From Branchiostoma floridae (lineage: Eukaryota > Chordata > Leptocardii > Amphioxiformes > Branchiostomatidae): a stretch of DNA of 64,000 nucleotides. Below are positions 13,398 through 59,590 of this stretch, piece by piece. Below the pieces are notes generated by a model. That model was not told the DNA's origin. It made no database searches and worked only from the letters and a program-made list of their open reading frames with translations. The first letter of the stretch is position 1; every line of letters starts with the position of its first letter. Position numbers and translations under genes: made by a program. The DNA is taken from positions 15,805,576 through 15,869,575 of the forward strand of contig NC_049980.1 in the NCBI RefSeq assembly GCF_000003815.2. Reading direction: 5' to 3'.

Positions 13398-14650
13398 TGA
13401 GGGTCTGCATGGGGGGGTCTTGGTAACGCTTAACGGTGAATTCAGGAGGCCCGGTAACGCTTAACGGTGAATTCAGGAGGCCCGGTAACGCTTAACGGTA
13501 AATTCAGAATTAGTTACAAAGCATAACAGTAACATTGACGTGCATTCCTATTCATACAACGCTAGAGTAGTTATATCAATAGGTGAAAATACATTGTGAG
13601 AAGCAAAAGGTTCCCAGAAACCCGGAGGAATGACAGGGACAATGTCCATGACATTAGTAAATTGACGGAGGCAGAGTTCCGGGTCCGCCACAGAGACAGC
13701 GGCAGCAAATTTCTTATGGGGCGATTGAACTATTTTTTCAGCACATCGAGCGCCGAAGGCGCCACCCATTCCAGGGGGGTCCGGGGGATGCTTCCCCGGA
13801 AAAATTTAAAAATCAAGACCCTCTTAAATGCTATTTCCTGCATTTTCGGCAAATTTTGCCGACCGACTAAGCTAGGTTGATTTTGACATTTTCATCAAAT
13901 TACACATGATTATACTCGTAGCTTTGGCCTCCACCCCCAGAGCCCCGACATATTTTTACCATTTTGATCACGAGACGTTGCAATATAAGTCCGGGAAAAT
14001 TTTAAAATCTGGACCGTCTGAAACGCCATTTACTGAATTTTGAAGGACAGATTTTGCCGTAAGACGAAGCTAAATTAAATGACATTTTATTAGAGAGAAA
14101 AGTTTTTTTTGTGCGAAAACCCACGCCCCTAACATATTTTCGCCATGTCGTCGTGAGCGCCAAAGGCGCAAGCCGTCGCAATGGAGGTCCGGAGAAACCT
14201 CATTTTCTGCATTCTAAGAGAACTTTTTGCCTGAAACTAAGCTATGTTTGACACTGAAATCTGCATGAGTGATAAAGTTTTGAGGGCGACGCTTCCGCAA
14301 CATATTTTACTATGTTCAGAGCCGAAGGCCGGGAGGCTTGGAGAAATTTTGAAATCTGGACCCTTTGAAACGCCATTTCCTGCAATTTCAGGGGCTCTAT
14401 CTGGCATTTGACTTCGTGTGTATAGTATAACGGGTGCATAACGGGTTACGAAGAATTTCTTGGTAACGTTTAACGGTGAATTCGGGATAACAAATAACGA
14501 TTAACGTTGAATTAAAACGACCAATAACGCCTCACGAAGAATATACTGATAACGGTTAACGTTGAATTAGAGCGGGTCAGTAACGATTAACGGTGAATTA
14601 AAATGGCTCGTAACGCTTAACGGAAAAAGGCATGCAGACCCTCGCAAATG
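13392..14650. mobile_element. Nonautonomous hAT-like DNA element, copy 1 (1243 bp)
   Basis: The element at 13400-14642 starts AGGGTCTGCATG and ends CATGCAGACCCT (12-bp terminal inverted repeats). It is flanked by a perfect 8-bp duplication CGCAAATG (13392-13399, 14643-14650); 8-bp duplications are characteristic of hAT transposons. Both ends are packed with variants of the subterminal motif TAACGnTTAACGGTGAATTC, all in one orientation, as expected for transposase-binding repeats. The interior has recurring GCCGAAGGCGC-like motifs but no transposase frame. The copy at 18110-19345 is clearly the same family. hAT membership is inferred from duplication length only. Confidence 0.8.
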
Positions 14651-17550: not shown

Positions 17551-20500
17551 ATGGCGGTCCTCAGTACGATACAATGCGTGTTCAGCGTGGTGTTGGTGTT
17601 GTTCGCCTCACCACTGCCTTGCCTCAATGTCCGAGCGTACCAAAGGCCCGTCATGGTACAACAGACGGGCAAAGTCTTGCCTAAGCCGCAAATGATGACG
17701 GTGTCTGCTGAAGCCTACACTCTGGCGATGTCCAGCTTTAAATTTACATACGGCTCTTCCTCCGAGATGTGCGACATCGTGGACCAGGCGTTTAGGCGGT
17801 ACTATGATCTTATATTCGACGTCGATGGACCGAAGAAAGCTCCAAAGGTACCTGAAAGCATGGCCGAGCTGACTGTACTACAGGTCATGGTGAAAGAGCC
17901 ATGCAAGGGAGCCTATCCCAGCTTGGAGTCCTCAGAAAACTGTAAGTACAGAAAATCTAAAATACAAAAATGTTACTGTAAAAAGGAAAATATTCGCGGT
18001 GGTTTCATGGTCGCGGTTTTAGCGAGGACCTCTTAAGAAGTTCAGTGCGAACTTAGAACCACGGTGAACACTTCCATCCTTTTACGTGTCAGTTTCAACC
18101 AATTTACAGAGGGTCTGCATGGGGGGGGGGGGGTCTTGGTAACGCTTAACGGTGAATTCAGGAGGCCCGGTAACGGTTAACGGTAAATTCAGGAGGCCCG
18201 GTAACGCTTAACGGTAAATTCAGAAGGAGTTACAAAACATAACACCGTTGAAAGTAACATTGTCGTGCATTCCTATATATACAGGTTTGACTGTAGTTAT
18301 ATCGATGGGGGAAATATCCGACTAATGACAAAGCAAAAGGTGCCCAGAACTCGGAGGAATGACAGGGACATTGTCCATGACATCTGTAAATTGACGGAGG
18401 TAGAGTTCCCGGCCCGCCACAGTGACGGCAGAAGTAAATTTCTTATGGGGGGATTGAACTATTGTTTCAGCACATGGAGCGCCGAAGGCGCGAAGCATCT
18501 ATTGGGGGTGTTCCGGGGGTGTGCTCCCCCGGGAAAATTTTAAAATCAAGACCCTCTTAAATGCTGTTTCCTGCATTTTCGGCAAATTTTGCCGACTGAC
18601 TAAGCTAGGTTGATTTTGACGTTTTCATCAAATTACACAATGATTATAGCTCCACCGCTGACATATTTTACCATTTCAAGCTCAGAAGGCACGAGACGTT
18701 GCAATATAACTAAGTCCGGGAAAATTAAAATCTGGACCGTCTGAAACGCCATTTACTGCATTCTGAAGGACACATTTTCCTGTAAGACGAAGCTGAATTA
18801 AATGACATTTTATTTGAGAGAAAAGTTTTTTGTGCCTACCCACGCCCCTAAATATTTTCACCATGTCAGCGTGAGCGCCAAAGGCGCCAGCCGTCGCAAG
18901 GAAGGTCTGGAGAAACCTCATTGTCTGCATTCTAGGAGTACTTTTTGCCCGAAACTAAGTCAAGTTTACACTGAAATCTGTATGAGTGATAAAGTTTTTG
19001 AGTGCGACGCTTCCGCAACATATTTTACCCTGTCCCGAGCCGAAGGCCGGGAGGCTCGGAGAAAATTTTGAAATCTGGACCCTTTGAAACGCCATTTCCT
19101 GCATTTTCCGGGGTTCTATCTGGCATTTGACTTCGTGTGTACAACGGGTTACGAAGAATTTCTTGGTAACGCTTAACGGTGAATTCAGGATAGCAAATAA
19201 CGGTTAACGTTGAATTAAAACGACCAATAACGCTTCACGAAGAATATACCGATAACGATTAACGTTAAATTAGAGAGGGTCGGTAACGATTAACGGTGAA
19301 TTAAAATGGCTCGTAACGTTTAACGGAAAAAGGCATGCAGACCCTCTTTACAGGTGCTTGATTTTCGCCCTACAAGTCCCCCTAAACATTAATCCGCGGT
19401 GGCAAATTTTACCCCTCTGCCGGCTGAAGTCCTTCCCCAGCTTATTGAAATAATCCAGAATAGATTCTGTAAAAATATTCTAGGAGTACAAAGAAGTTCT
19501 AGTAACAGTCCGTATAGTCAAATATTGGCTTCGACTCAGACAATTAAATATGTCTTCACATCCGTTACAAGTAGATGCACTTCAGTCACAACATTATTTA
19601 CCAGAGAACAGCCGCAGGAAAAACTGGATACATCATGTAAAGGAAGTACTTGATAACAGCGGCTATTCATACATCTGGAATACCGACATCATAGACAGCA
19701 GTTATTCATGTACATTGTTAAGGAGAAGGTTGAATGACATGTATACTCAAACTTTCTTTTACAAGTTATCTGTAGACGAAGGAAAACTTAGATTTTACAA
19801 AAACTTAAAAACAACATATGACATGGAAAACTACTTGTACCATAATAATTATGATTACCGCTCAGCAATATGTAAGTTACGAATTAGTTCGCACCCGTTA
19901 GAAATAGAGAAAGGAAGATACAAAAAGCTACCTNNNNNNNNNNNNNNNNNNNNNNNNNNNNNNNNNNNNNNNNNNNNNNNNNNNNNNNNNNNNNNNNNNN
20001 NNNNNNNNNNNNNNNNNNNNNNNNNNNNNNNNNNNNNNNNNNNNNNNNNNNNNNNNNNNNNNNNNNNNNNNNNNNNNNNNNNNNNNNNNNNNNNNNNNNN
20101 NNNNNNNNNNNNNNNNNNNNNNNNNNNNNNNNNNNNNNNNNNNNNNNNNNNNNNNNNNNNNNNNNNNNNNNNNNNNNNNNNNNNNNNNNNNNNNNNNNNN
20201 NNNNNNNNNNNNNNNNNNNNNNNNNNNNNNNNNNNNNNNNNNNNNNNNNNNNNNNNNNNNNNNNNNNNNNNNNNNNNNNNNNNNNNNNNNNNNNNNNNNN
20301 NNNNNNNNNNNNNNNNNNNNNNNNNNNNNNNNNNNNATGGGCATGAATTTGCAATAAACTTATTAAACTATGTACTGTTTTATGCCACCGAGGAATCTGC
20401 TTGGAGATTACCTAAACATTTCTCCTTTGTCAATATTTTTGTTGTAATGTTTAACATTTTCATGTTTTTATAATCATTTTACACGTCACATATTTTTCCA

Positions 20501-23500
20501 AGACAGCATCTATGTAACGTTAGCTTCTTTACGGGCAATTTAGTCCTGGACAGCGCAGTTTGCATTGCATAGACTGGGAACAAGTTTTCTGCGCGGGGAA
20601 AATTTGATCAAGCATTTTCTTTCACATGCAAATTTAAAAGTTTCAAACTTTTTTGCGCATGAAATTTGGAAGTCACTTAAAATTGAAAATCACTTGAAAG
20701 AAAAAGGTTTTGTTGTGTAGAATGTAACGTTAACTAATAGGATTGAAACGTACAAGAGGGGTGAGTAGAACAGAAACAAATAATATATACAAATATCCTG
20801 ACTCCCGGGAATCGAACCTGTGTAACTGACCAATTATGCCAAAAGCCTGACAGGCGTTTGGCATTGTCAGTTGTGTTAGCGCTACTTGAACCCCCACTGT
20901 TACAGGATACTTGTACTTAATTCCATTTTGTGCCATCTTTATCTTATTTAAACTTTTAAGTTTAAAACTCCCTTTACGTTTTTGAATCCCTTGGGAGCCA
21001 GCTTGTCTATTCCCAAGGAACCAGAAATTCAACCCAAAATTTAAGGCAACAGATATAGAGTAGAGTAGTACAGTAGAGTTCTTCAGGCACAAGTAGGAAC
21101 TCTAGTTCCAGTTTAGGCCGCTCTCTCGTTTCTCAGACACTGACATCCCAGGTAATTGCGGATCATCCAGGGCTCTAATAGTCTAAAGTTGTAGTACACA
21201 CTGTGTTTCTTCATGTGGTTGTCTAGTCTTTCTTTAAAGCAGTTTACAATAGAGATGTCACCACCGGTTCAGGTAGATTGTTCCACCATGAGGCAACCCT
21301 GATGCAGAAGAAATGTGACCTTCTGTTACTTTTCGTTGCTTTTTTCTTGATCCGGAGGCAGTGACCCCTTGTTTGTGTGCTCGTGTTTAACTCAAATGGA
21401 CATGAAGTGTCGTATATCCCATGTAACAACCTGTAGACCTGTGTTTATCAGATCCCCCCTAAGTCTCCTATAGACCAGTGTAGGTAAATTCAGAGCCTTC
21501 AGTCTCTCTTCATAGGGTAGACTTCTAAAATCATACATTTTATGAACATTACTTTTTCCCGCACAAATATATCCCTCACAAATTTTCCTGCACAAATTTA
21601 GATAGACAGTTTATGGTAATGATGATCTTTTTTGTCCATTCTTGTTCCCAGACACTCTGACAGTTACTGCTCCGATGGGAATGCTGGTTGCTGATTCAGC
21701 ATGGGGAGTGTTGAGAGGTACAATCTAAGCTATGAACCTTCTGTCATTGACAGTTTGGACAGTGGCAGGGAATAGGTAAACTTTGCCAAAGTTCTGTCCC
21801 ATGAATGACTCTCTGCAGTCAAAGTAAGGACATGTATCCTGTTGCTTTCCTAATATAACTTCCTGCTGGAATACAGCTTGTCCTTGTTATGTTATGTTGT
21901 AACATGTATGTTTCTTACTTCAGGTTTGGAGACATTTTCTCAGCTGATATACAGAACAGATGATGGCACGGTAAGTATGGAGACAAACTTACTCAAAGGT
22001 ATAACTATTTCAATGGAAAACAAGAGTGCAAAGATGCCATGCCATGATTTTTTTGTCCAATTGTAGGTCATTAATTATGCAAATAAGTTTTTGATTAACA
22101 TCACTTACTTTCATGATGATCACTTCCTGTCACTGTACAGTGAAGTTGACTATAATATGGAAAATGTATAACTGAGAACTCTGACAAGGAGACCATTTTA
22201 ACCTCCAATTGAATTTCACTTCCTGTGCATGCCAGTCTGCGGTAACACTATTCAGAGCCTCATTTCTTGTCACTCTAATGTATTCAAGTAACGATATAAA
22301 CGCAAGAGAACAAACATACAAAACACCCTGAAAACAAAACCTCTGTACATTGGTGTCGACTGTTATAGACCAGAACATAATATAGCCAACATCAGAAAAT
22401 TGCTTTGTAGGATGTCATTACATTTTGCTTTGTTACAACAGATGATCATCAACAAGACTACAGTAGATGACTTTCCCAGGTTTGCCCACAGAGGAATCCT
22501 ATTGGACACTTCCCGCCATTTTATTCCCCTCAAGTACATCAAGCAGAATTTGGTAAGAGTTTCATCTGTCTACAGCTGATTGGCTTCCCTTGTAATAATT
22601 CCTGGGGATAAATGGAGACTTGTTACACTGCAGCTAATTTTGGGCCCCTTCTTCATACATATCTTTAACTCTTATCCACTATTGATTTTGTTTGAAGAAA
22701 AGTAAAATGAAGAACATTTATAGGATCCTCTTGTTGTTAAATTGTAGGATGCAATGGCTTACAACAAGTTCAATGTGTTCCATTGGCACATTGTGGATGA
22801 CCAGTCCTTCCCATATCAGAGTGTTGTCTTCCCTGATCTCAGTGCTAAGGTAAGAAGATATTTGAATTACAATTATGTTTCTTACAAATTTTAGATTCAC
22901 AGTATCTATTGTAGTAGTGCTAATATGAAATTGTCGTAATATAAGAATGCATGGTAAGAGTTGTTATCAATACTAAGCAGTTTATCCAATAAGAGAATGG
23001 CTGCATGAAACTGCTGCTAGGTACATCTGCAATATTTCAGAATTTTGACCAAGATGTTTTTTTAACTCCTAAAAGTGTAGGCTGCTTGTTTAAAAACTGA
23101 ACAATGCAAATGTGATTAGGAGTATCTGACATAAACTTTACCATTGTTTCGACATTCAGATGGTGGGGTTATTAAAATTTTTATGTTGTGTTGATGACTT
23201 GATATTTGTACTCCAGGGAGCCTTTAATCCTTACACCCACCTGTACACGCAAGAGGATGTTAAGGATGTTATAGAGTACTCACGGCTGAGGGGCATCAGG
23301 GTTGTGCCAGAGTTTGACACCCCTGGTAGGCGCATTATGATTTACATGTGATCAGCAGGACTTGATGTTATTAGCTGTAAACTGTTTGCAGTGGTATATT
23401 TGTATGATGTTATTTTTATCCAGATACTTCCGTTATGTAGAATTTGAATGATCAAAACATTAAAACTAAAAGGGGGATTTCTAGTGGCCTAGGCCTGCTT

Positions 23501-26500
23501 ACACGTTGTTTACAAGTAGCAGTACTGAAAGTGTGAAAAATGACAAGTATATCTGAATGGAGATTTTAAGGTTCAAAATGTTTTCAGTTTTGATATCAAA
23601 ATTCTACAATGTGTACCCTTAGATTGGGGACCTGACCAATACTTAATGCCTACATGTTACCTTTGCAGGCCATACAGCCTCCTGGGGTGCAGGTCTCCCA
23701 GGGTTCCTCACACCATGTTACGATGGGTCCACACCCAATGGAAAGTACTACGCTGCTAACCCCATGCTGAACACCACGTATGACTACATGACTAAACTGC
23801 TGCAGGAAGTGAAGGATGTGTTTCCTGATAAGCATGTCCACCTGGGTGGGGATGAGGTGAACTTCAACTGCTGGTAAGTCCCAAAGTCCACTGCCTAAGC
23901 ATGTAATAAATACATGTACATGTCTGAGTCAATGTGAACACGTTTTGGTGGTCCCTTAGATAATTTTTCATGCTGATGTCAGTGTTAAAAATCCAGTGTC
24001 TATAGTGACCACCTGTCTACAAATACCAGATTTTCTCTATTTTTCTTGGGTACTTTTGACTGGTGAAGGTATTCCTTATGTCTATCATAAGCAGTAATTA
24101 GTTACATATTTCTTTGGAGTTATATATTTTTTTGTTTAATTATTGTTTTTGTTTAATTGATACGTAGTTCCCTGTGTTGTTCTTATCCAAACTAGTGACA
24201 ATTTGTTTGTTTATAGGAAGAGTAATCCAGACATCACCAAATTTATGGAGAAAATGGGCTTTGGAACAGACTATTCCAAACTGGAGCAATACTACATCAA
24301 AAAGTAAGATTCAAGAAATACTTTACAATGTATGTTTGGCAGTGCAAGGTATACTAAGTTGTTATGCTTACTTAATTTCATTGGTAAAATGATCTCATTG
24401 ATAAATTCTGGTCCAGTTTAGCTCACTGAACAGCTATTCATCCATTGGTTGTAAAAAGAGAAGACAGAGGCTATACACTATATTTACTGGTGTATTGGTC
24501 TAGTCTACATGTTGCTCTCTGTGACAAAAACAATAGATAGAGTGGAGAAGGTTTAACATCTTTTGCAGACTTCTGAGACCCTTTCCAATAGAGTGCATGT
24601 CAGGTGAGCAACGACAGCTGAGACTTGAACCCCCAAATTGTAGATGTAGAGGCAGATTTGATTACAACTGGACTATGCATGCTGCCAGCAGTGGTGAAAG
24701 ATACCAGGGATGATGGAATGATATATCAAGGAATTTCGGTTATCTTCAACGGAATTACTTTTTGTTGTGTTTGTGTTTGCATGCTTCTGTAAAATAATTC
24801 CGGCTGTCAAAATCCTGTAAATCTAAGAGTCCTACATGTGTGCCTGCAGTATCCTGGATATCTCCACATCCATCGGGAGAGACTATATTGTGTGGCAGGA
24901 GGTGCTGGATAATGGTGTGCAGGTAGGACAGTTTACTGTAGCAGCAGCTGGCTCTGACCCCACCTGATTGCTTACTGCTTTGCTAACTGCACTTTCATGA
25001 TGGCATGTCTAATTTCTAAACATCTATTTGCCATGTCTGGATAGCTATTTCAGCAAATAGCTGTTCCTGTTTTTTTCACGTTGCAAGAAGCACAATATAT
25101 TAACTCAAGACACAATTTGTAAGCAGTAGAGACTTGTACAGTGCACTTAATAATGCAAAATGTTCTAATAATTTTAGTTGTATATGTTGCTACTTACAAG
25201 TGGTATAAGTTGCATCAACAAAGTGACTCTGGCAACCATAATCATTGTGGGAAATATTCAGAAGCATTTCTGTGACAATGAACACCAGGAGCTTGTTAAA
25301 GCATCTTTTCTGATTATAAAAATAAACAAACAAAGGATTACCAAGGAGGTTGAAAAATTACCAATGCTGGCTATTGCTACAAATTTGTTCTGCACAATCA
25401 AGTACATTTCATCTCAATGTCTGTCCTTTATCAGCTGTCATGGTGACAAAGAAAGTTACAAATATAAACAAAAGGCAATAAAGTGACAGAAGAGGCCAAA
25501 GCATGGTGCATGTTGATACCACCATGTCATTTTTACTACTGATGACACATGTAAAACATTGCATTTGCTGTATTATTATCACCTTTATAGTCTGCACTCA
25601 TGGGAGTTACCTTGATTCTGTTTCTGGATGTAAAAAAAAATGCATGAGTAAAAATTTGAGTGCTAGTTGCCCATATTCCCCTCTAAAGTAGTTGTTGTTT
25701 TAGGTGGCCAAGGACACAGTAGTGGAAGTGTGGAAGAGCAATCCTCCAGTGCCCACTGAAATGGCTACAGTAACAGCCAAGGGCTTGCGGGCCATCCTTT
25801 CCTCATGCTGGTACCTCAATTACATCAGCTATGGAGATGACTGGGGCAAATATTACAGCTGTGAACCACAGGACTTCACTGGTTAGTAGACGTTGCTGCA
25901 AACTGCAGGTGGATGTTTCAAGTCCTGGAGACAATCATACCAATTTTTGATGCTCCCATTGTAGGTGTCAGTCCAATTGCAACAAGTGGTATACATGTAT
26001 GCTGCTTGATTAGTATTTACCGAGAGATGAAAAAGTGACTGTCATGACAACCATTTCAGAACAGTTCTCCTCTCTGGTATTGCTCACATTTCACCTTCCA
26101 TACTCCCGGCATGATATGCTATGTGTTCATCACATCTTCATTCAGAACATCACTACATTTACATGGTACATTTCCGTGTACTAACTTACATAACATAAAA
26201 ATGCCAACAAAACACAAACTGATCCCTACCTCCAATGAAGCAATGTTAGCTCTGCTGAATTCCACATTGTAATGTAGCCTCAGTTTTAACTGAGTTTATA
26301 ACACTTACATTTCTTAGTTCATAGTAAGCTGCAATAAAGATCTCAGATGTTAAAGAATTCTTAAACCCCTAAAGTTTAAAACATTCCAGCCAGTTTATCC
26401 AGCCTTTTTTGATATAGCAGTATACAGTGACAATGGAAACATTTCCTGTCAACCAACCAGAAAGGGGCCCTACAATCTTTGTAGCACTAAATGCTTTCAT

Positions 26501-29500
26501 TGCATAAAAGGAATACTTTTAATTTCACTGTTGACACTGCTGAAATCTCATTCAGTTAGGTTCAATAGAATGTCTCATCCATGTGCGGTCCATGAGAACT
26601 TTGTTGATGTAACATATACGTACTAGAAGTAGGGCAGTAAGGAAAAGTCAAGCCTTTGTTCTAAGCAATGTGCCAGGCTTTAGCTTCTTCATGTAACACA
26701 GTGCGTTCACTGTGTATTGTTGTTGCCAGGACAAATCAACTGTAGGGGAAGTATGGTTTGAAAACCCGACCATCCAGGCTGTACTAGAGAGGCTGACAGC
26801 CAAGGGTTATCGTGTGTTACTGGCAGCTGGCTGGTATCTGAACCATGATGTATACAACCCTGGAACTGACTGGGCTGATTTCTACAAATTAGATCCTCAA
26901 GTGTTCAATGGTTTGTTATTGATCGGGTTGCCCCTCTTATTTACTTTCCTATTTTGTACATTCATTCCACAATTGGAACATGTGAACATAACAAAATACA
27001 AAAGTATAGACTAGTCACACTGACCCACCATTTGGAAAACATCAGTGATTCTTTTTTTTTTTTTTTCAATCTTTATTCAAGATTCAAAAATACAGTACTG
27101 TAAATGCAGAAATGTTCGCGGTGGATTAATATTCGCGGTTTTCGCGGTGACCACTTCACCGCGAACTTAAATCCACCGCGAACATTTTTCTATTAAGGTA
27201 NNNNNNNNNNNNNNNNNNNNNNNNNNNNNNNNNNNNNNNNNNNNNNNNNNNNNNNNNNNNNNNNNNNNNNNNNNNNNNNNNNNNNNNNNNNNNNNNNNNN
27301 NNNNNNNNNNNNNNNNNNNNNNNNNNNNNNNNNNNNNNNNNNNNNNNNNNNNNNNNNNNNNNNNNNNNNNNNNNNNNNNNNNNNNNNNNNNNNNNNNNNN
27401 NNNNNNNNNNNNNNNNNNNNNNNNNNNNNNNNNNNNNNNNNNNNNNNNNNNNNNNNNNNNNNNNNNNNNNNNNNNNNNNNNNNNNNNNNNNNNNNNNNNN
27501 NNNNNNNNNNNNNNNNNNNNNNNNNNNNNNNNNNNNNNNNNNNNNNNNNNNNNNNNNNNNNNNNNNNNNNNNNNNNNNNNNNNNNNNNNNNNNNNNNNNN
27601 NNNNNNNNNNNNNNNNNNNNNNNNNNNNNNNNNNNNNNNNNNNNNNNNNNNNNNNNNNNNNNNNNNNNNNNNNNNNNNNNNNNNNNNNNNNNNNNNNNNN
27701 NNNNNNNNNNNNNNNNNNNNNNNNNNNNNNNNNNNNNNNNNNNNNNNNNNNNNNNNNNNNNNNNNNNNNNNNNNNNNNNNNNNNNNNNNNNNNNNNNNNN
27801 NNNNNNNNNNNNNNNNNNNNNNNNNNNNNNNNNNNNNNNNNNNNNNNNNNNNNNNNNNNNNNNNNNNNNNNNNNNNNNNNNNNNNNNNNNNNNNNNNNNN
27901 NNNNNNNNNNNNNNNNNNNNNNNNNNNNNNNNNNNNNNNNNNNNNNNNNNNNNNNNNNNNNNNNNNNNNNNNNNNNNNNNNNNNNNNNNNNNNNNNNNNN
28001 NNNNNNNNNNNNNNNNNNNNNNNNNNNNNNNNNNNNNNNNNNNNNNNNNNNNNNNNNNNNNNNNNNNNNNNNNNNNTCATTAATTACATTGCTGTATTCT
28101 GATTTGCAGAACTGTGAAACTACTGATATCAATCCATTGTAAACAAATTCTGAAGTAATTACATTAAATTTCAAACCTAATTCTTTATATGACAACATTT
28201 TTTTATCACCATCTAACACATCATGAACAAACAAAATACAGTGGTCTAGCATATCCTGCCATAAGAAAGGTTTATGGTTTATCTTAAAATTCGAGTTATA
28301 CCACAGGACATGTGATTGTGATTCAGTCTCGGGGGGGTTAAACTGGAATGCCAGCCAAGCTGATAGTACATCTCTGAAAAATACACTAACACAATGGAAC
28401 TCTAGCTTAAGAAACATGTCAATTTTCATTACGTCATTATCTATTTGAATAAATGGAAATAACCCTTTTTCAAAGACAACATGTGTGTTTGACAGAAGCT
28501 TAGAGCAAAACCAATGAGTATTATGATATAGTTTTGGTACCCATGATGCCTTCAATGAAGCGTTAAATGCACATAAATTAATAAGTCCTAATACTCCACA
28601 ATCACGTGACTTATGTAATACCTTTCTCTTCAGCCTCTCCGGACCATTGTTCCAAATGAATTTAAATATTCTTCTTTCGTACTGTTGAAAAAATGTATGG
28701 TCTGGTGAGGGTAGAACAAGGAACATGTGAGCAAAAAGGGACACTACCAAAGAGTTAATTATTGCAATTTTTCCGTACAATGATAACAATCTACCCCTCC
28801 ATGGCTGTAATGAGGAGTCAAGCTTCATAAGACATTTAGTACAATTAATAGAAACTATTTCATTCATTCTTATTGGAACATGTGTTCCTAGCATATCAAA
28901 TGGTCCATCAGTCCAATCCACTGGGTATTGACATGGAAATCTAAAATCAGTGCCTTTAAGGGACCCGATTCTAATTATATTACACTTTCCATAATTGGGT
29001 GTAAGGCCCGAGAGTTTACTGAAGTGATTTAGATCACTGGTTAATGCGTTCAGTGAGACAGGTGTAGGTTCTAATGCAAAATTTGTGTCATCAGCATACT
29101 GGGCCAATTTTGTTTCTATCTCATTTGTTACGAGACCTTTGATGTTTGTGTTACTCCTGATTCTAATAGCTAGTAATTCGACAGTCACAATAAAAAGATA
29201 GGGTGAAAGAGGGCATCCTTGTCTTACCCCTCTCTGGGGCTGGAAAGGTTCTGACAAATTTCCATAATTGACAATCCTACTAGAGATATTGCTATAAAGA
29301 ACTTGCACCCATTTGACAAAGGAGTTTCCAAAGTTGAAGAACTGCAATGCCCTTAAGATAAAGTCCCACCTAATGCGGTCAAATGCCTTTTCATAGTCGG
29401 TTACAAAAATTATTCCTGGTAAATTCTCTTCTTCATATTTTTCAATGATCTCCAAGATTCTGCGAATGCCATCTCCAATGTATCGTTTCTGCATAAAACC

Positions 29501-32500
29501 GGTCTGGTCACTTTCTATAATGTTATGTAGCACTTTACACATTCTCTTCGCTAAACATTTGGACAGAATCCGAACATCACATGTTAATAAAGTTAAGGGG
29601 CGCCAGTTCGTTAATATGGATGGGTCTTTATCTTTACCGTTCGAATCTTTCTTTAAAAGTAATGATATTACTCCCTCTCTCTGAGTTCCTGAAAGCTGAC
29701 CTTGTTTGTATGCATGATTTAAGCAATCTAACATAGGAGATTTTATGTGCTCAAAAAATACATCGTAGAATTCTACAGGGATGCCATCTTGTCCTGGTGT
29801 TTTTCCTTTTTTAAAAGACTTAATCGCATTTTTTAATTCAACTTCTGAAATAAGGCCCTCACATTCTTGACTCTGAACATCAGACAGACGTTTAGGATAG
29901 TCACCAGGGAAGAAGTCTTCACACAATTCCTCCGTAAGAGGATCAGGAGTTTCTTGGAACGAATAGAGCGCATAGAAATACTCAGTTTCTATTTTAACAA
30001 TATCGGCAGGATCGGTGTAAATATGTCCATCAGTATTTCTTAACTTCAAGATATTTTTCCTTGCATAATTTCTATGTTCCAAGTTTAGGAAATATTTCGA
30101 GCAACGTTCCCCTGATTCCATCCATTTACACCTTGATAAGAATCTTAGTCTCCCCGTCTTTTCACAATAAATCCTTTCCAATTCTTTTTGCTTACACTCG
30201 TAATTTTCAAGAATTTGGGGAGATGGGGAAGTGTCCTGGTCTAGTTGGGTTTTTAATTTGTCTATCTCTGCTATAATTTCTTGTTCTTTCGCAATGTATT
30301 GCCTTTTTTTCCATGACGAATATTTAATTGTATGACCCCGCACACAGCATTTAAACGTATCCCACACCACCTGAGGATCTGCCGAACCTGTATTGTGACT
30401 TAAAAAATCATCAATAAAGTTTTCGGTTTCTTTAAGATACTTAGGGTTTGACAATAATGATGTGTTTAGTTTCCAATAACCTTTTCCCCGAGGATAATTA
30501 GATATAACCAGTGACAAAGCTATGAGGTTGTGATCTGATCTTAGACGATCAGCTATTATTGTTTTAGATACTTTGGACAACAGAGAGAAGGAAATCAAGA
30601 AGTAGTCTATTCTGCTTGCTTGTTTTTTGCGTCGCCAAGAATAGCGGGTAGAATTTTGATTTCGAAATCTCCAAATATCTAACAGGTTGAACGTACTCAT
30701 TATGTCATGAATCTTCTCTCGTGCGTAGGGGTGGTAATCGAACACCCTCTGCCCTGCTCGATCCATTTTGGGATCAAGAGCTGTATTAAAGTCACCGACT
30801 ATTACAAGGTTCTCATAGGAGACATCTACTGCTTCGATACTTCTCTCCATTTCCTCAAAAAAATCAGGATCGTCCGAATTGGGACCATAAGCATTAACTA
30901 TGCAGAATCTGAATTCTTCTATCGTTATATCAAGCACCATCCATCGGCCCATTTCATCGAGTTTTTTATCGTTGATTGTGTAGTCTAAACCTTTCTTAAA
31001 TAGTATCATGACACCTTTACTATTGCTTGTTCCGTGGCAGAAAACAATGGAGCCTCCCCATTCGGAGGCCCATACATATTCATCGTTAGTCTTATTGTGT
31101 GTTTTCTGTAGGCAAATGATTTCATAAGGTTTGTCGGACAGCCATGTAAAAACTTCGTTTCTTTTTCGCTTGTCTCCAATTCCGTTACAATTAAAACAAG
31201 CTATTTGTAATTCGAATTTGGCCATTGGAAGTGTACGGCAGCAGAAAATTCCAGAAATGATTTGCCTGCAATAACAGAGAGAAAGGAGAAGTAATCGCTA
31301 TTTACATACCATTCAGATTCCATGCACAGATGCTGGGTGGCCAGGTGTCTGACTCTGATCAAGGCATTCCGGGCATCTGTCATCGGGACATCAGTGATTC
31401 TTATCATTTTCAAAATTAGTCCACTATTACTTATACCTTTAATTTTCTGCAATGAAGTAAGGTCACTTAATTTTGATTATAATGCCTCAGACGACTTAAA
31501 TGTGTGGAAAAACAAGGTCAGCCCCATAAAAAAAGAACCCCAAAATGGACGGATTTTAGAAGACAAATGTGGTTAGAAGGATTGAATAGATTAAATCTAA
31601 TACTCTTTTGTTTTGGGAACTTTAAACGAATAGTTAATGCCCACCTCACCGATATTCGCCAGCGTGATGCATTGTAAATGTCAATGTAAATGTCTCTTTT
31701 GTTTTGGGCTGAGGAAAAACAAACGCCATCTGTTAAATCAAGAATTTTGTTAGTAGTTTTTATGTCATCATATCCCTTTTGTCATCTGTTCAGATTAATG
31801 ACCTGCATTAAGTCCAGCTCTCCGAGAACTGAGAAGCAAAAAAACAAAATTGTTCAAATGTGCACAAAGATCTTAAAGGCATACTACGCAGTTTTTTGCG
31901 CTCAAATTTGAAATATTCTAGAATTAAGAAACATCAGATTTACTACTACTTTTTGTCACTTTTTGACACTTTTGTGTGATTATTTCACGTTTGCAACGTA
32001 AAGGATTAGCCTACAAACATTCCGCTCTAGGCACCCTGTAACCTTGTGTCCCCCCAAGTTAGACCCTCCAGGTCTTGCTTGCCACCGGTAGGTCCCCCGG
32101 GGTGGGGTAATCAGTTAGCACATGCATGGCAGACTGCAGATAAAGAACACAATGGAGATCTTCTTTGGAAACACCTATATCTAATCATTCTAAAATAGCA
32201 TATAATCATGAACTTATTAGTCTATTTTGTAGGATATCAACAAGCTAAGGTCATATTCCCTTCAAAACTGCAAGAAACCTTGTACAGAAAGCTAGTCTAC
32301 TGTACTCAGAGGAACTGTCAACTGGCCCCCCACTGGGAAGCCAGGCTGATAAGCAAGAAACAACAACACACAGAGGCAGTAACCAGCCTGTGCCCATCTG
32401 TTTCTTGGAAGATCACAATTTTTATACATCATAATGTGGTGCATTGATGTCGCAGCATCTCTCCATGAATATTGGTATGCAATGCTATAGGGTTGATTGA

Positions 32501-33875
32501 GCTAACAATGTAAAGAAAAAGTAGGAAAAGCTACTTTTTGTTTTGTTCAAAAATCCCGTAGTATGCCTTTAAGCAACACATGTGTAAATAGACTGGATTC
32601 ATTCCTCAGCTAACACCATCTTTTGTACTGCAGTTATCCCTCAGTAACACATCTGGGGCTTCATAGCTCTTGAGTGTTACAAACTTTCCTTCAGTCTGTC
32701 ACCCAGACCAATGTAGCCCATGTCACTTCTTCAGTGACTGGATGCTTGAATGACACAAGTAGATAAAGCTCTCAATTATATGCTGACTTGATATCTTTTT
32801 TTTTTTTATACAGGTACACAAGCCCAGAAAGACTTGGTGATTGGTGGAGAGGCCTGCATGTGGGGAGAGTATGTGGATGGCACAAACCTGATTGCCAGGC
32901 TCTGGTCAGTGCACACTTCATGTCAACCTGTTCTTGCAGTTAATTTGACTTTGTCCTGTCAAGTTCTTGAACTAGAATGTAAGATTGAGACAGAACTAAA
33001 GTCCAATTGCTGTGACATAGAATGTACATATAACTAAGTACAAAAATGTATATCTCTTTGTACTATGCTGTCAGGGTAGATCTAGTTGGGAGTTTCTGTT
33101 GACAGACTCTGATCGGAATGTTTCTGTTGACAGACACACCGTTTGTGATTTCTACCGGTAGGTTCGGCAATTTTGCTGGTAGTTATCCCGATCAGAGTCT
33201 CCCTCAACTGAAACTCCAATCAGCATCTCTACCGTCAGAATTGCCGATTCAACCAGATTGGAGTCTCTACCCTAATATATAGCATAACATGTAGCTGGTG
33301 TTATGATTTGGGCTTAATGTTGTCCTTCATAGTTAGTTTTACAATGTAACATGACGTTCATCCATATGAGTTTAGTTCATACTCAAATGACATGATAAAT
33401 ACTTATAGTACCCCCTATCTCCCTCCCAGGCCTAGGGCCAGTGCTGTCGCTGAGCGGCTGTGGAGCAACAAGGATGTGAAAAACATGGCAGATGCAACCG
33501 TAAGGATGGACGAGCAGAGATGTCGGATGGTCAGGTGGGTGTCCCTGCTTTGATAGCCTTTTGGCATCAAATCTTTCCTTGTTACAAAGATACAGATTAA
33601 GACAGTACCAAAAAGCTCACCAGAGGCAGAGTTTCTAGCTCTGGTCCAACAGAAGTACATTATACCTACCCTACAGATGTCTTCTTTACACAAAGGCATG
33701 ATAATAATAATGATACAATGATCACTGCTGATTCTCAGTACATGTCTTTTCAACTTATGCTGGAAGGTACATGTTCAACATAATTCACTTCCTTGATTGC
33801 TTTCTTTTTTATTGCAGGAGAGGACTGAATGCTGAACCCCTCCATCCAGGATTCTGCCAGTTTGAATATGACTGA
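17551..33875 (+). CDS. Beta-N-acetylhexosaminidase (HEXA/HEXB type, GH20), complete
   Basis: Lysosomal exo-enzyme removing terminal GlcNAc/GalNAc from glycans and gangliosides. Exons: 17551-17941, 21652-21717, 21924-21970, 22442-22552, 22748-22849, 23217-23325, 23669-23873, 24217-24303, 24850-24922, then 25704-25881 or 26730-26910, then 32814-32904, 33430-33534, 33818-33875. All phases fit; 540 residues with the first alternative, 541 with the second (human HEXA 529). A signal peptide is visible (hydrophobic [13 protein letters not shown]). Family marks: LLDTSRH (substrate arginine), [10 protein letters not shown], catalytic [24 protein letters not shown]. The 5' splice phase (AAC T|AC) restores the conserved ENYTLT junction, confirming exon 1. 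Introns hold many transposons, including a 4-kb antisense LINE. Convergent with GFM2. One gene here stands for the vertebrate alpha and beta pair. Confidence 0.95.
18102..19353. mobile_element. Nonautonomous hAT-like DNA element, copy 2 (1236 bp)
   Basis: The element at 18110-19345 has the same ends as copy 1 (AGGGTCTGCATG, CATGCAGACCCT), flanked by ATTTACAG and CTTTACAG (7 of 8 bases alike), i.e. an aged 8-bp duplication. Subterminal TAACG-TTAACG repeats and interior blocks follow copy 1 in order, with many substitutions and small indels. It sits in intron 1 of the hexosaminidase, next to a degenerate TTCGCGGTGG repeat (about 17970-18070). No transposase frame. Confidence 0.8.
19399..20473 (+). 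mobile_element. Broken C-terminal end of a LINE ORF2, interrupted by a gap
   Basis: Two overlapping frames (from 19399, then from about 19550) encode a post-RT region: [16 protein letters not shown], then [19 protein letters not shown], a signature common near the C-terminal zinc region of animal non-LTR ORF2 proteins. The frame change between them means at least one frameshift. The N run 19934-20336 removes the next part; after it the frame ends at 20473. Clade not assigned. It is a 5'-truncated fossil in hexosaminidase intron 1. Confidence 0.7.
19934..20336. other. Assembly gap (403 N)
   Basis: A run of N inside the LINE fragment in hexosaminidase intron 1. Confidence 0.95.
20800..20900 (-). 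repeat. tRNA-like/SINE fragment with a long imperfect hairpin
   Basis: On the minus strand GGTTCGATTCCCGG (complement of about 20801-20818) is a textbook T-arm/B-box. Next to it, AACTGAC (20824-20830), TGCCAAA (20837-20843) and GCCTG (20845-20849) pair in order with CAGGC (20851-20855), TTTGGCA (20857-20863) and GTCAGTT (20866-20872). No complete cloverleaf can be drawn, so it is not called a tRNA gene. Confidence 0.4.
21118..21560 (-). mobile_element. Frameshifted LINE RT C-terminal remnant
   Basis: On the minus strand two neighbouring frames encode [37 protein letters not shown] and [10 protein letters not shown], the familiar tail of jockey/CR1-superfamily ORF2 proteins (YEERLKxLxLPTLxxRRxRGD ... 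WNxLPxxVV). At least one frameshift separates them and everything upstream is missing. A fossil in hexosaminidase intron 1, just before exon 2. Confidence 0.75.
24590..24700 (-). repeat. tRNA-derived SINE-like fragment
   Basis: Minus strand: TAGTCCAGTTGT (A-box-like), then 33 bases on GGGGTTCAAGTCTC (B-box-like). Box spacing is close to that of a tRNA, but the acceptor stem does not pair. Lies in the intron between hexosaminidase exons 8 and 9. Confidence 0.4.
25704..25881 (+). CDS. Hexosaminidase alternative exon A
   Basis: 178-nt exon between TTTTAG and GTTAGT, entering at phase 0 and leaving with one base (ACT G). It encodes 59 residues with [28 protein letters not shown] and DDWGKYY, aligning along its length with human HEXA/HEXB (the segment around Trp392 and Trp420-Arg424 of HEXA, numbering from memory). 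It is the more HEX-typical of the two versions. Confidence 0.9.
26730..26910 (+). CDS. Hexosaminidase alternative exon B
   Basis: 181-nt exon between TTGCCAG and GTTTGT, same phases as exon A (0 in, 1 out: AAT G). It encodes 60 residues with [29 protein letters not shown] and TDWADFY. It matches exon A position by position but differs in the loop after WYLN, including two extra residues. Splice sites are canonical and there are no stops. A phase-1 donor and phase-0 acceptor cannot be joined to exon A without shifting the frame. Confidence 0.88.
27046..27200. repeat. T-tract plus hairpin repeat of the TTCGCGGTGG family
   Basis: A run of T (27051-27066) is followed by TACTGTAAATGCAGAAATG at 27095-27113 and a self-complementary block with arms TTCGCGGTGGATT and AATCCACCGCGAA variants up to the gap at 27201. 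The same unit is found whole at 46864-47454. Confidence 0.65.
27201..28076. other. Assembly gap (876 N)
   Basis: The gap removes the 3' end of the L1/Tx1-like LINE: the C-terminus of its ORF2, 3' UTR and target duplication. Any reading frame drawn through it is artificial. Confidence 0.95.
28077..31225 (-). mobile_element. L1/Tx1-like non-LTR retrotransposon ORF2 (partial, 3' end in gap)
   Basis: One uninterrupted frame of 1049 codons on the minus strand, antisense inside a hexosaminidase intron. N-terminus: APE-type endonuclease ([36 protein letters not shown]). Middle: reverse transcriptase ([63 protein letters not shown]) of the L1/Tx1 type. The endonuclease motif that normally reads LQET is LQKT here (codon at 31103-31105), so the catalytic glutamate is lost. 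No ORF1 precedes it: only about 650 bases separate its start from the next element. An intact long frame argues for a fairly recent insertion. Confidence 0.9.
31873..32572. mobile_element. 692-bp inverted-repeat element with TTAA target site
   Basis: Ends are AGGCATACTACG (from 31877) and CGTAGTATGCCT (to 32568), continuing with related CAGTTTTTTG and CAAAAATCC blocks. TTAA stands on both sides (31873-31876, 32569-32572), the target of piggyBac and Kolobok transposons. No transposase frame. Lies in the hexosaminidase intron next to the LINE. Confidence 0.75.
33073..33273. mobile_element. 201-bp MITE-like inverted repeat
   Basis: Starts AGGGTAGA and ends TCTACCCT, with internal complementary blocks GACTCTGATCGG and CCGATCAGAGTC, so most of it folds into a hairpin. 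No target duplication recognised. In the intron before the penultimate hexosaminidase exon. Confidence 0.55.
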
Positions 33876-34921: not shown

Positions 34922-37900
34922 TCAAGATCCTTCAACATTGAAAGTTGTCATTTTCTTGAGGAGTCTGTTCTGGTCCAGTGAGGTCATCTCCTCATAGCTG
35001 AACAGCTCCATGGTGAATGTCGCCTGTCCAGAGGTCACAGTTCGTATTGCTGTGGAGTAGCCCTGCATTGTAAAGGATACAGCATTAATATTTTCAACAA
35101 TCAGCTCATCACATCTACCAGACTGTTGAGGAGAATTTCTCTTTCAATGGCCAAAAAATGGCAACTTATTTTCGGCTTACATAGCTTCCAGCTGAGAATT
35201 ACTCTGATCAAAGCCAGCAGAACTTTCCCAACTTTACTTTTTCTAATTGAAAAGATGGTTAGTGGAGACTAGCAGGCAAACTCCCAATCACAGATGACTA
35301 TGCACACAGATGGGGAGGCAATGGTTGGCACGTGATAGACCTTACCATGAGTTCTGCTAGCGGTGCCTCTGCCTTTACCACCCTGGTCTCTGCCCGACTC
35401 TGAACCTCTGTCACACGACCACGCCTCTGGGAAAGGTCGGCCAGAACGGACCGCATGTGGCTTTCATCTGTGGTGATCTGATAGTAGAATATTCACACGT
35501 AGTTGGATATCGAGTTTGCAAATGACAGCAGAATTATACTAGTATTCTGTTATAATTGAAAGGGAAAGTCCAAGGGAACAGGGAAATCGAATGAAACAAT
35601 CATTACTAAGTCTTGTAAAAGGGAAGTGCATTGCATTATGTCTTGTAAACTATGGGAAGGGCACGACATCATGTCAGGGACTTCAACTACAGTAGTATAG
35701 ATATGAATGGTATCATTCAGAATGCCAGAAGTTTCATTTAAATCTATATGAACCATTGTCCAATACATGTATGCTTCTAATAGTGTATAATTTTAATATA
35801 TATTTTATGGTAAATACATTTTATACATAAAATTGCTTGGAATTTTGTAATACAAGACAGCTTTACCTCCAGCACCATCATTGGTTCTAATATTTTCCCA
35901 CCACTCTTCTTTAAAACCTGAAATGATAGAAGGTTCATCCATGAAAGTTCCTCCTTTTTCAGAAAGTCTGAAAGCAGTAGGCATGCAAGTAATACAAAGC
36001 ACACAATTGTAAAGATCCTATAACAGCATGGCCTGAACATGGCAAATGACAATGCAAGACTGGAGTACACTAGGAACTGTAGAATGCCCTACCTTCTGTG
36101 TTGCCTGTGCTGCACATGCTGACACCATTGCCAGAGATGTCCCTGGGCCAACCTCGATGGACTCTACAGTCACCTTTGCACCCACCACAGGATAGCCTAA
36201 CAAGGGACCTACAGGCACATACAGATAGAAGCATCACCATATTTTTGTATGTTATCATACATCTGTTAGAACAAGTATCAGTAGGTATTAGTACCAATTA
36301 CATTCTATTCCTGGAGAATGGATAAGAGATTACATTTAGCTGATATGCCCTTCTAAAAAAAACATCACGCTCCTTACCTTGGGTACAAGATGATGCAATG
36401 CCAGTTTTCACTGCTGTTAGAACATCCTTGTTCACTTTCCTTCTGTCTAGTCCAAAGTATACTGCAACATCCCTTGTCGGGCCATCTGCCTCCTCTGGCT
36501 GTACGGAGACAGTCACTACAGCATGGTGCTTCTGGGCACCAAGAACCCGGTCCACAGTCACTGGGGAGGAAACCAAGGCTATTTGTGGACAATCTACAAT
36601 GGGTAGATCTGTTCTTGAGTAGGTGTGAGATTCTGTCCTTGATACGGCCTCACTGTACATATACAGTTAAACCTGTACAAGTCACCACCTTGACATAAGG
36701 ACCACCTGAGCAATGTCATCACGTTTTGGTGGGTCCTCTGATAATTCATCCCATTGAAACAAGCATTGAGAGTTTTATGTAATGTGACCAACTGCCCACA
36801 TATACCAAACTCTATCAGTCCCCTAGATGGTCTTCTTTGTCATGTTTGACTCCTTGTTGCACATTGCCAAACACCACACAGAGTGGAGAGAGTTTGCAGC
36901 CAAAGATGCAAGCACATGCAGAAGGAAGTAAACCCAAGTTTACGTACATGCACTATGAATAACAGTTTTCAGTGGTATGCAAACTGATCCCTATCAGGGC
37001 CCACTTGATTGCGATTGCTGAGTGACTGTACGACAACCAAAATTGAATTTGTGTAACACTTGATTTCATATTTGGAATATGATGCAAGATGTTAAAGTGT
37101 GACTCAAAAGAAAATTCACAAAGGGTAAACTATTTAGTTATATCTATGAGATTTGTTGAGCACTCCTTGGTCACTCTCCTGTTGCAGCAGCATCTAGTGG
37201 AAAGGGTGTGTAACAGAGCAGGAGTACACACCTGTTTCCTGAGCCGTGCCACCCACTGTCTCCCTGTAGGCTACCTGTAGAGGCCCCAGGTGAGTCTCCA
37301 GGTTGTACTCCTTTAAGATCCTGTCATGTATGATCTCCAGGTGCAGTTCACCCATCCCTGATAAAACAGTCTACGCACAAATATAACATAAATCACTAAC
37401 ACATCTTCTGAGGGAGCTGCTTCAAGGAAATGACTTGGACATTCAGTTACTGCAATTACAAAACACATGCATATTTACCTCAGCCATATATATTTCATAA
37501 TTGACCATAGATGAAGTTCCCCAAGAGATGAAAATACCTGGGTGTTGACAATCAAAGTGGTGGTTTCTATAAACAAATTTTACCAATGCCATTTCAAATC
37601 ATCAAAGTTTTCACTAATGCAAGTGACCTAGCTAGACAGATTAAAACGGGCATGATGTCTTCAAGACACCACTATTTACCTGTCCAGTTTCAGGATCTAT
37701 TTTGACATGTAGACTTGGATCCTCTTTCTGAAGATTGACCAAAGCAGCATCCAGCTCTAGACAGTGTATATGATATTACAGCATCCACAATAATCAGTGT
37801 GCATTTTACACTATCGTGGAAAGGCTATTGCAATAGAAAAAACAAGAAAGGTTTTCATGCTAATTTGATTATCAATATGACAATACAATTATTGATATAA

Positions 37901-40900
37901 TACATAGTGGTAACTGTCATTTTGCACCAAGGACAGAGAAAGAGCAGCAATGAGATATAGATCTGTACCAAGGACAGCAAAAGAGCAACAATGAGACACA
38001 GGTCAGCACCAAGGACAGAGAAAGAGCAGCAATTAGAACAAAAGTCAGCACCAAGGACAGAGAAAGAGTAGTATTGGAAATAGAGGTCAGCACCAAGGAC
38101 AGAGAAGGAGTAGTATTGGAAATAGAGGTCAGCACCAAGGACAGAGAAGGAGTAGTATTGGAAATAGAGGTCAGCACCAAGGACAGAGAAAGAGCAGTAA
38201 TGAGACACAGTTACAGGTTGTAAGGTGTTGAGATTATGAATGAAATCCAGCTATGTTCAACTGGTATGGAACAGGTGAATCCTGTAAACCAGTTTCATAT
38301 ATTCAGGGATTGGCAATCTCTCCTGATTGGTCATACCCTGTTGTTTTGACATTGATGGTGCTTCTATTGTGCAGAAGAAGACAGGTTCAGGAACATCCAA
38401 TCCTGCAAGCACTGGGGCATCCTCGTCCCCCATAACAGATATGGACTGTCCTTCCTCCTGCAGCCGACCTCTTACTTTCTTGGCTGATACCACTGCAGAT
38501 GGGGAGGACACAAGCGTGTCTCCTGTGTATGTCTGAAAAAGCAACAAACAGCACGTAATAAGGCAATATTTTGAAAGCTACAGATATACCAATAATAAAA
38601 TATGAGTAAGAGAAGAAAGTATACTAACTGTACTGTTAACAATCAATATCATAGTTCTCTACTGTGATAACAGAGATGGTAATCCAGTGACTTGGTATAT
38701 GTACATTCATTCTTGTTTCTGTAACTTTATCTAGGATTTTGCATTACTCTACATGACAGAGTGAAACTGGTATCAAGGAAAGAATTGCATACAAACCTGT
38801 TTTAGCCCCACCACCATGGCTATGTTGCCAGCAGACATGGAGGACATTTCTCTGTACTCATCAGCAAACACCAGCAGTAGTCTGTTCACACGTTCTCTGT
38901 AGGACATCAGGTAGGAGGCAAAGTGTTACATGTTCCTACTTGAGACCTACTAAAAGTAGCAACAGAACACAGTAGCTTCTCTTCAGACCCAACCAGCGCG
39001 GGAATAAATTTCGTCTGAGTTTGTTAGATACCTGGACTTTGATTTTACATCGCTATGATAATTGTAAAAAGGACAGTAGACCTACAGTACAACATAAGAC
39101 AATATGAGGGGTTATCAATAAGTTCAAGGCCCTAACCTAGAAATATGGTCCACCAAAAAAATTATATTTGAACAGTCACTGCAGATTCATCTTTCTTAAA
39201 TATTCTGCTCATAGACTCGAATTTTGGGGCATAATTACTAAATATCAAGTCTATGAACAACCCAGACAGCTCTGAAAAAAAAGTCTGATAACAGTTCACC
39301 TTGTTTTTCTCACTGCACTAAAATGGACATGGAATGGACTGGAAAGTAATGGCCATGATGATTTAAAATTTGGTACATATTGGTAAAAGACTTAATGCTA
39401 TGATTATGTTTTATCTTCTTTACCTATGTCGATTTGGGAGGGTGTATAAATCTGATGGCTTTACATGTATCTTTCCCCCAGCAAACAAGGGGTGATCAAT
39501 AGGTTCACAGTCTCACACAAAAATAAGGTGCACAACTCAAATTTTGGGGCATAATTACATAATATAGCATGTAGTACACTGAAGATAAGAACTGAGTTTT
39601 GTCTTACGTGCAGTCTCTGCTGACATTGTAGATGGTGGACTGTGGTGTGATGGTGCCTGAGTAGATCCTTAGGAAGGTCAGGGGTCCCCGCTGCTTATGA
39701 TGAGTAATCTTGAATGCATACGCACACAGGCTATCTTCATACAGCTGCCTAGTAGACAGAAAGATACCAAACTCAATATCCATACAGCATGAGTTTGCCT
39801 CTTTGTTTTTGTTTAGTCATTTAAAACTCAAATCGGCTTACTCACCACTTGTATTGAGGTCATGAGGAAAAAGGTACAATGTACATGTAAGGGTCAGACA
39901 AAATATTACAAATGCATGTAACACTAGCTGATTAGTTCCCATCGATGTAAAGGACTTCTGCAGCAGTAAGATAAAATACTTGTTACCACTACTACTACTA
40001 CTACTTGTACTACTACTATTACAGTTACTGTTAGTGGTACTACAGATTACATGATTGTTGTGATAGATCCATAATTATATGGTGCGAATCAATATATAAA
40101 CATAAGGTAAAATATGACCCATGATGTAAAATATAAAACACATAACAAATTAAAAGTTGGCATATGGACCTTGTCCAGCCATTTGGGTCATTTCAGAGTC
40201 TTGTACAACTAAAATCTAAACAGCATCATTTACTAGAATAAAAGATGGGATTTGTTCTGACTACTTACTCCAGCTCCTTCCCCTTGTCCTGTGGGTCAGG
40301 CAGGTACCTGATGATGGCATCCAGCAGGGGCTGGACACCTTTGTTCTTTAGGGAACTGCCACACAACACAGGCACACCAGTCTGGGCTTGGGTAACTCTC
40401 TGCAAGGCCATATGGACCTGCAGAGATGTAGATGGAGAAAATCTTTTAGCTATCTTGCACAAATGGTTACTTCACTGTTACAGTAGCATTTGCCAAACTT
40501 TGTTGTATGAGTTTGGCTGTGACAGAACTGCTGGCAAGGATCACAGACTATCTTGACATATGAAAATATCCATGACTTTTTTTTAATGAAGATGCATTAA
40601 GATTTAAGACAGAATATGTACTTCATGTAAATGAATAACTCTCTCACTTCTTCAGCAGGAATGGACCCCAGGTCACATGTGCCATCTCCACTGAGTAACA
40701 AATCTGCCATCTTGTCATCCAGTTCAGCCAACTGGGAGAAAACAAGTACTGTCAATACAGCTCTTCATCTGGGTTGGAAAACTCCTTAAAGTAAACTTGT
40801 ATCAGATACTAAAATGGCAAAAGGTGCTCACAAAATTAGTAAGGAGATTTTCTGTGAGGAGAAGAGAAAAAGCAGAATAGTTCTTTTATTTATATGACCA

Positions 40901-59400: not shown

Positions 59401-59590
59401 TGCATAGGAACATTCGAGGGATAGAAGCACGGCCAGAAGACTTGGTTTGGGGGGCACAGTCAACGGGTACGTTACGCAATACTCTGTCCCTCTTGACCAC
59501 CGATGACGCACTGACTGATTTGCATCTGAATCGGTCAAGCAGAGAGGGCAAATAAGTGATTATTCGCAGGTTCGTGTGTAGGATAAGATA
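56431..59590 (-). mobile_element. CR1-like LINE with an intact 932-codon ORF2
   Basis: Frame 59551-56753 on the minus strand has no interruption. APE endonuclease: NPRSIINKIDEFQ, SETWESN with catalytic Glu present, GDFNRLD, GLSDHLSV. Reverse transcriptase: SKAPGPDNIPLKLL, LRPISLTSQFSKIAE, TDFSKAFDRLHHN, GVAQGTLLGPILF and the catalytic YVDD in KYVDDMNM. The C-terminal part has RIQRRACRIILG. The 3' UTR ends in three TTTGAAATC-type repeats (56431-56457, plus strand GAAATCTTT), the short tandem tail of CR1-type LINEs. All visible catalytic motifs are kept, so it may have been active recently. No ORF1 seen; sits in the putative first intron of the last gene. Confidence 0.9.

Follow-up and report, generated by a model that had tools for sequence, protein, structure and literature searches.

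Two tandem versions of a substrate-site exon in a lancelet HEXA/HEXB-type hexosaminidase gene, putatively spliced as mutually exclusive exons

In the 64,000-nucleotide stretch of Branchiostoma floridae DNA analysed here (NC_049980.1, positions 15,805,576 to 15,869,575; hereafter the window, in whose numbering all coordinates are given), we have characterised a gene for a HEXA/HEXB-type beta-hexosaminidase in which one exon is present in two adjacent, homologous versions, 10A and 10B. From the exon anatomy we infer that 10B is used as well as 10A and that the two probably serve as mutually exclusive exons, so that this one lancelet gene would yield two hexosaminidases, each of the exons being spliced in at some tissue or stage. 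Messages containing both exons or neither would be removed by nonsense-mediated decay, and an intronic hairpin looping out exon A may assist. That the swap would in addition alter substrate preference, around a constant catalytic Asp-Glu pair, is a further claim on which we regard the balance as close to even.

Exons 10A and 10B within the hexosaminidase gene

The gene lies on the + strand, its coding part extending over 17551..33875, and the 13-exon spliced model containing exon A is identical across 540 residues to the protein P0001, named by NCBI 'beta-hexosaminidase subunit alpha-like isoform X2 [Branchiostoma floridae]'. The A form carries the Glyco_hydro_20 (Pfam, 1.4e-92) and Glycohydro_20b2 (2.1e-18) domains, which identify it as a GH20 beta-hexosaminidase of the HEXA/HEXB type, and its catalytic residues D337 and E338 are invariant in a 50-sequence alignment. 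For the B form, a 410-residue query found the human alpha chain as its best PDB match (E 2.8e-172, over the full query length).

Exon 10A (25704..25881, + strand, 178 nucleotides (nt)), which is the one in NCBI isoform X2, and exon 10B (26730..26910, + strand, 181 nt) are separated by an N-free intron of 848 nt (25882-26729). Both are bordered by AG and GT, both donors start with GTT, and both have phase 0 in and phase 1 out. Their translations are identical at 26 of 59 aligned columns (44%) with a single 2-residue gap, and tblastn relates them at E 8e-14 and 1e-13, any other in-window match of either exon having E >= 0.78. In the spliced models, A alone gives 540 residues and B alone 541, both open. 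When A is joined to B, the TGA at nt 30-32 of B stops translation after 466 residues, 149 nt upstream of the next junction, and when both are skipped the stop comes after 405 residues, 64 nt upstream of the next junction; an enzyme is therefore obtained by single inclusion alone. Nonsense-mediated decay acts on stops lying more than roughly 50-55 nt before a junction. As both distances exceed this, the double-inclusion and skipped messages fit decay, and their decay would suffice as a filter for exclusivity. The pair has the properties of a tandem exon duplication: adjacent homologues of similar length and equal phase, with a frame that is broken by inclusion of both or of neither.

Much of this picture had been drawn by a sequence-only reading of the DNA, and its coordinates, exon lengths, AG/GT borders, phases and open frames were all reproduced, as were the homology of the two segments, the early TGA on joining A to B and the frame shift on skipping both. 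Its description of an 'active-site exon' needs narrowing: A and B encode substrate-binding residues, but the catalytic Asp-Glu pair (in the motif HLGGDEV) sits in a constant exon at 23669..23873. Its proposal of mutually exclusive splicing is supported in part: the frame outcomes, the homology of A and B and the evidence of selection described below fit it, and exclusive use is what they would predict.

The remaining exons named here are also on the + strand. Coding exon 1 runs from the start codon to the first intron (17551..17941; 100% identity in tblastn with P0001, with which the spliced model agrees). Constant exon 9 (24850..24922, with AG/GT borders and an open frame) and constant exon 11 (32814..32904) are the splice partners upstream and downstream of A or B, and they are followed by constant exon 12 (33430..33534, from the gene model and tblastn) and by the last coding exon with the stop codon (33818..33875). 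Each coding exon other than A and B has one significant tblastn match in the window (E <= 6e-5; the remainder have E >= 3), which bears out, within the window, the earlier statement that they are single copy. The window includes 1,529 N bases in three gaps, 876 of them within the intron after B.

The substrate-site cassette and what its exchange may change

An AlphaFold model of the A form built with 50 sequences has a mean pLDDT of 90.7 and matches human HexA and HexB (2gjx_A; TM 0.87 by model length and 0.95 by target). In this model exon A corresponds to residues 398-457, comprising a strand (403-406), a helix (413-422), a second strand (426-429) and a second helix (444-448), and the exon limits fall between secondary-structure elements; the exon encodes two neighbouring beta-alpha units of the barrel, by strand count the sixth and seventh of eight. 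Alignment to the human chains places within the exon the equivalents of alpha W392, Y421, N423 and R424, which are named among the active-site residues in PMC3377590, together with a loop aligned with alpha IPV398. Another study attributes the use of negatively charged substrates mainly to alpha N423-R424 as against beta D452-L453 (PMC3587417).

At the position equivalent to alpha 424, A has Tyr and B has His, and the loop that follows has 7 residues in A and 9 in B. We compared this loop in 35 segments (34 chosen from 184 proteins, plus B): 26 others share the 7-residue length of A, including the ten vertebrate segments examined. A 9-residue loop like that of B is present in one hemichordate and in two crinoids; the sea star segment has 10 residues, and three further segments have 5. 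The hexosaminidases with loops of 9 or 10 residues are the hemichordate, crinoid and sea-star records P0140, P0137, P0141 and P0146; two of these, P0140 and P0146, carry the label isoform X1, and further isoforms may exist there. Within the lancelets, exon A of B. lanceolatum (P0003) has Arg at the equivalent of alpha R424, where Tyr is found in B. floridae and B. belcheri, so that a key specificity residue varies among lancelet species inside exon A itself.

Since exchange of the exons would replace two beta-alpha units, including the R424 equivalent and the loop behind it, a changed substrate preference is the outcome that we propose. Engineered human beta chains (modB, PDB 5bro; hybrids H1 and H2) are alike in that their use of charged substrates was shifted through the equivalents of alpha 423-424, within the exon stretch, and unlike in being laboratory designs with few substitutions, some of them outside the exon (312-315). 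Beta-based hybrids with N and R at these positions cleave the charged substrate MUGS (PMC3587417), and one such hybrid served in mice as a HexA-like modified HexB (PMC3243693). If both lancelet forms are made, nature would have swapped the very stretch through which HEXA and HEXB come to differ, for the most part, in their use of charged substrates, and which engineers altered so that human HexB accepts such substrates.

Some observations speak against the proposed change of preference. The 424 position is variable: among 172 homologues it holds Tyr in 65, Arg in 61 and His in 21. With Tyr and His each frequent there, the Tyr/His change alone need not alter specificity. Furthermore, H1 and H2, which cut MUGS, showed no GM2 hydrolysis with the human activator (PMC3587417). 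As exchanging these residues did not enable human beta to hydrolyse GM2, the cassette would be insufficient for ganglioside use. Our estimate for specificity is unaffected by this negative, because the claim concerns charged versus neutral substrates.

The best surviving alternative, which we nevertheless judge unlikely, shares the splicing part of our proposal and differs in the outcome alone: both exons would be used, and the B enzyme would have the same substrate preference with altered dimerisation, stability or activator binding, or would be inactive and act as a regulatory or decoy subunit. The human subunits must dimerise to be active, and the loop aligned with alpha IPV398, which has been proposed to take part in the activator complex, lies within the exon (PMC3587417); a conserved Asp, Glu, Ser and Ile are moreover altered in B. 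According to the same paper, however, an activator role of the IPV loop has not been confirmed by experiment, and in the active-site region B retains Trp, Trp-Tyr-Leu, Asn and Asp-Trp, as expected of an active enzyme.

Selection on exon 10B and its probable use

The use of exon 10B is favoured by its protein-level conservation. Conserved columns were defined by a level of 85% or more among 172 non-lancelet homologues (184 proteins less 8 for length and less 4 lancelet rows, the B form being set aside), which gave 21 in the exon. All 21 are retained in A and 17 of them in B, against agreement of A with B at 9 of the 36 other columns (Fisher p=5e-5; 10 of 38 and p=6e-5 after adding two leading columns). 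Differences between the two exons are concentrated at the third codon position (17, 19 and 39 of 57 at positions 1, 2 and 3; p=3e-5). Neutral divergence to about the same identity was simulated with A as the ancestor and by substitutions alone, and 20 of the 21 columns were scored (the last lies on an intron-split codon). Of 20,000 runs 13% were stop-free, and a mean of 9.0 of the 20 conserved residues was left; an open frame combined with 16 or more of the 20 occurred in 0 of the 20,000. The retention of conserved columns, the codon-position bias and the failure of any neutral run to match B argue for long selection on B at the protein level, with the GH20 pattern retained, and B is not relic-like in these respects. 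A very recent silencing may also be compatible with the same statistics.

The annotation of lancelet genomes offers a circumstantial point. Four lancelet A-form records were found, of which those of B. floridae, B. belcheri and B. floridae x japonicum are named 'isoform X2' and that of B. lanceolatum is named HEXA; the X2 label implies that another isoform is annotated for the first three. NCBI customarily numbers isoforms by length, and if this was done here, the B form, at 541 residues against 540, would fit the X1 label. The second isoform may already be part of the NCBI annotation.

Against the use of B stand several findings. The protein searches, whose representatives were clustered at 90% identity, returned no B-type lancelet sequence, although the B form would be close enough to P0001 at that identity to be hidden in a clustered database. 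B deviates at 4 of the 21 conserved columns; the GC content of third codon positions is 0.45 in B and 0.59 in A; and the donor of B matches the consensus at 6 of 9 positions as compared with 7 of 9 for A, the 12 scored donors of the gene spanning 5-8. Of the candidates in the search for B-like proteins, 0 of 91 passed E<=0.001 with region 265-327 and 70 of 136 passed E<=0.01 with the wider region 250-345, the four lancelet A forms leading the latter. Five of the 184 proteins score nearer B than A (a fish protein, a green-alga protein and three known from transcriptomes or metagenomes), and by eye none of them looks orthologous to B.

The lower third-position GC content and the slightly weaker donor would also suit the view that B is a duplicate silenced not long ago, or never spliced at all, whose frame is intact, A alone being used. 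We consider this improbable: neutral decay left the sequence stop-free in a minority of runs and preserved the conserved pattern in none, the splice borders and phase of B are intact, and other isoforms are annotated. Still less probable, in our view, is that double inclusion is a deliberate off switch of the poison-exon type, with B mainly regulatory; the stop of the A+B message does lie 149 nt ahead of a junction, but conservation of B at the protein level is unexpected for a pure poison exon. Finally, that B was misplaced in assembly from another hexosaminidase gene or haplotype is very improbable, for although the window has three N gaps, none lies between A and B, no further exon of a duplicate gene is present in the window, the phase of B fits the gene exactly, and two exons that are only 44% identical are not alleles.

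Mutually exclusive use of 10A and 10B being the preferred reading, we examined how exclusivity might be brought about beyond decay. Steric exclusion was rejected, as the A-B intron, at 848 nt, is too long. With respect to an incompatibility of U2 and U12 introns, the borders at both exons are GT-AG, U12 class having been judged by eye. An inverted repeat with imperfect pairing, Watson-Crick at 27 of 35 positions, has its left arm at 25190..25224 and its right arm at 26598..26632, about 100 nt upstream of exon B, both given on the + strand; the hairpin would loop out exon A, and we mention a role for it speculatively, as a lead. Its score was reached in 1 of 1000 dinucleotide shuffles (0 of 100 in an earlier ungapped control). 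Its support is weakened, however, because placements elsewhere in the real window score as well: 6 of 276 reach the score, at four loci including the hairpin's own, and two of the other three loci resemble transposon ends by eye. Nor are its mismatches enriched in G-U pairs (1 of 8), so that selection on RNA pairing is unsupported. Whole-intron duplex energies were no better than those of shuffles for the three intron pairs (37, 42 and 49 of 60 shuffles as low), and the short direct repeats near the exons revealed no duplicated intron flank. With regard to control by docking site and selector, the search found this single hairpin and no competing partner. TGCATG sites are present upstream of A at 25507 and 25641.

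Surroundings, origin and relation to known systems

Downstream of the hexosaminidase gene, tail to tail with it, lies a gene for an EF-G-type factor (about 34922-43377, - strand), of which a 45-residue piece within 42647-42889 has the mitochondrial ribosome-releasing factor 2 (GFM2) as its best PDB match. Human HEXB adjoins GFM2; with such a neighbour the lancelet locus would be HEXB-syntenic, and conserved HEXB-GFM2 microsynteny is possible.

The intron after exon B holds an antisense retrotransposon frame (27167-31297, - strand), whose endonuclease domain is above the Pfam cut-off and whose reverse transcriptase start is below it in the piece scanned. Because the 876-base N gap lies between flanks of this retrotransposon, a hidden third copy of the exon is less likely. 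A second retrotransposon, at 56753-59614 on the - strand, has an open frame of 953 codons with RVT_1 (Pfam, 2.4e-20). Inverted-repeat ends that resemble small DNA transposons by eye occur at 31872-32573, 46883-47410 and 27115, and the unit TTCGCGGTGGATTAATATTCGCGGT has exact copies at 27115 and 46883. Another repeat, some 1.2 kb long, is present twice, once upstream of the hexosaminidase gene (13400-14642) and once in its first intron (18110-19345), with 86% identity between the copies over 1,269 columns; each copy starts with AGGGTCTGCATG and ends with the reverse complement of AGGGTCTGCATG, in the manner of a DNA transposon.

Concerning the origin of the pair, the homologue search scored the 7,988 candidates with most shared words, and 119 of the best 120 of its 4,327 matches score nearer A than B. 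Since nearly all of these listed homologues are nearer A, B cannot simply be equated with the exon of HEXA or with that of HEXB. In a tree of the segment (35 rows, 60 columns), B falls near lancelet A and two further sequences but on a very long branch, of 2.31, and approximately unbiased tests rejected none of the groupings of B with lancelet A (p 0.33), with the long-loop ambulacrarians (0.13) or with the hemichordate alone (0.20). By these comparisons all three groupings, and the ages that they would imply for the A/B pair, are compatible with the data.

The open-access literature, searched by titles and starts of abstracts, yielded no exon switch in a HEXA/HEXB-type or amphioxus hexosaminidase, which agrees with the sequence-only reading, to which no such switch was known, without proving absence from print. 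Duplicated mutually exclusive exons are found in other enzymes. PKM1/PKM2 and CYP4F3A/B are made in this way, PKM being a barrel enzyme like the one studied here; exon choice in CYP4F3 changes substrate preference, and the PKM exons affect regulation and tetramer contacts, not the substrate site. Both belong to families other than that of the lancelet hexosaminidase, and ketohexokinase (KHK) is likewise an enzyme and a gene unrelated to it. Mutually exclusive duplicated exons are a known kind, with KHK among the enzyme examples: its exons 3A and 3C are usually exclusive and give isoforms, KHK-A and KHK-C, that differ in tissue use and in affinity for the substrate (PMC6464065). The kinetics and tissue use of the KHK isoforms are established, whereas those of the lancelet forms are predicted. 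In docking-site/selector clusters such as those of Dscam and srp, intronic pairing can hide or expose one exon of the cluster (PMC6071210), and the lancelet gene differs from these in having one possible hairpin with no competing partner found.

The closest comparison is with vertebrate HEXA and HEXB, which belong to the same GH20 family (the listed vertebrate matches are 53-63% identical to the 410-residue query) and which differ from each other at the place covered by the lancelet exon (PMC3587417). In vertebrates there are two genes, and in the lancelet one gene with two exons. We tentatively suggest, as a possibility that we hold somewhat doubtful, that the lancelet diversified towards charged and neutral substrates by exon choice, with roughly one quarter of the barrel exchanged as a unit and the catalytic pair left in place, where vertebrates did so by duplication of HEXA/HEXB; the boldest form of this suggestion, in which the A/B pair would be ancestral to deuterostomes, we rate lower. 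The B-length loops of the hemichordate and the two crinoids point that way, and the tree tolerates B beside them, as it equally tolerates B beside lancelet A. If both forms are made, the lancelet would have a pair of enzymes differing solely in the substrate-site cassette, and with it a testable pre-vertebrate alternative to the HEXA/HEXB duplication.

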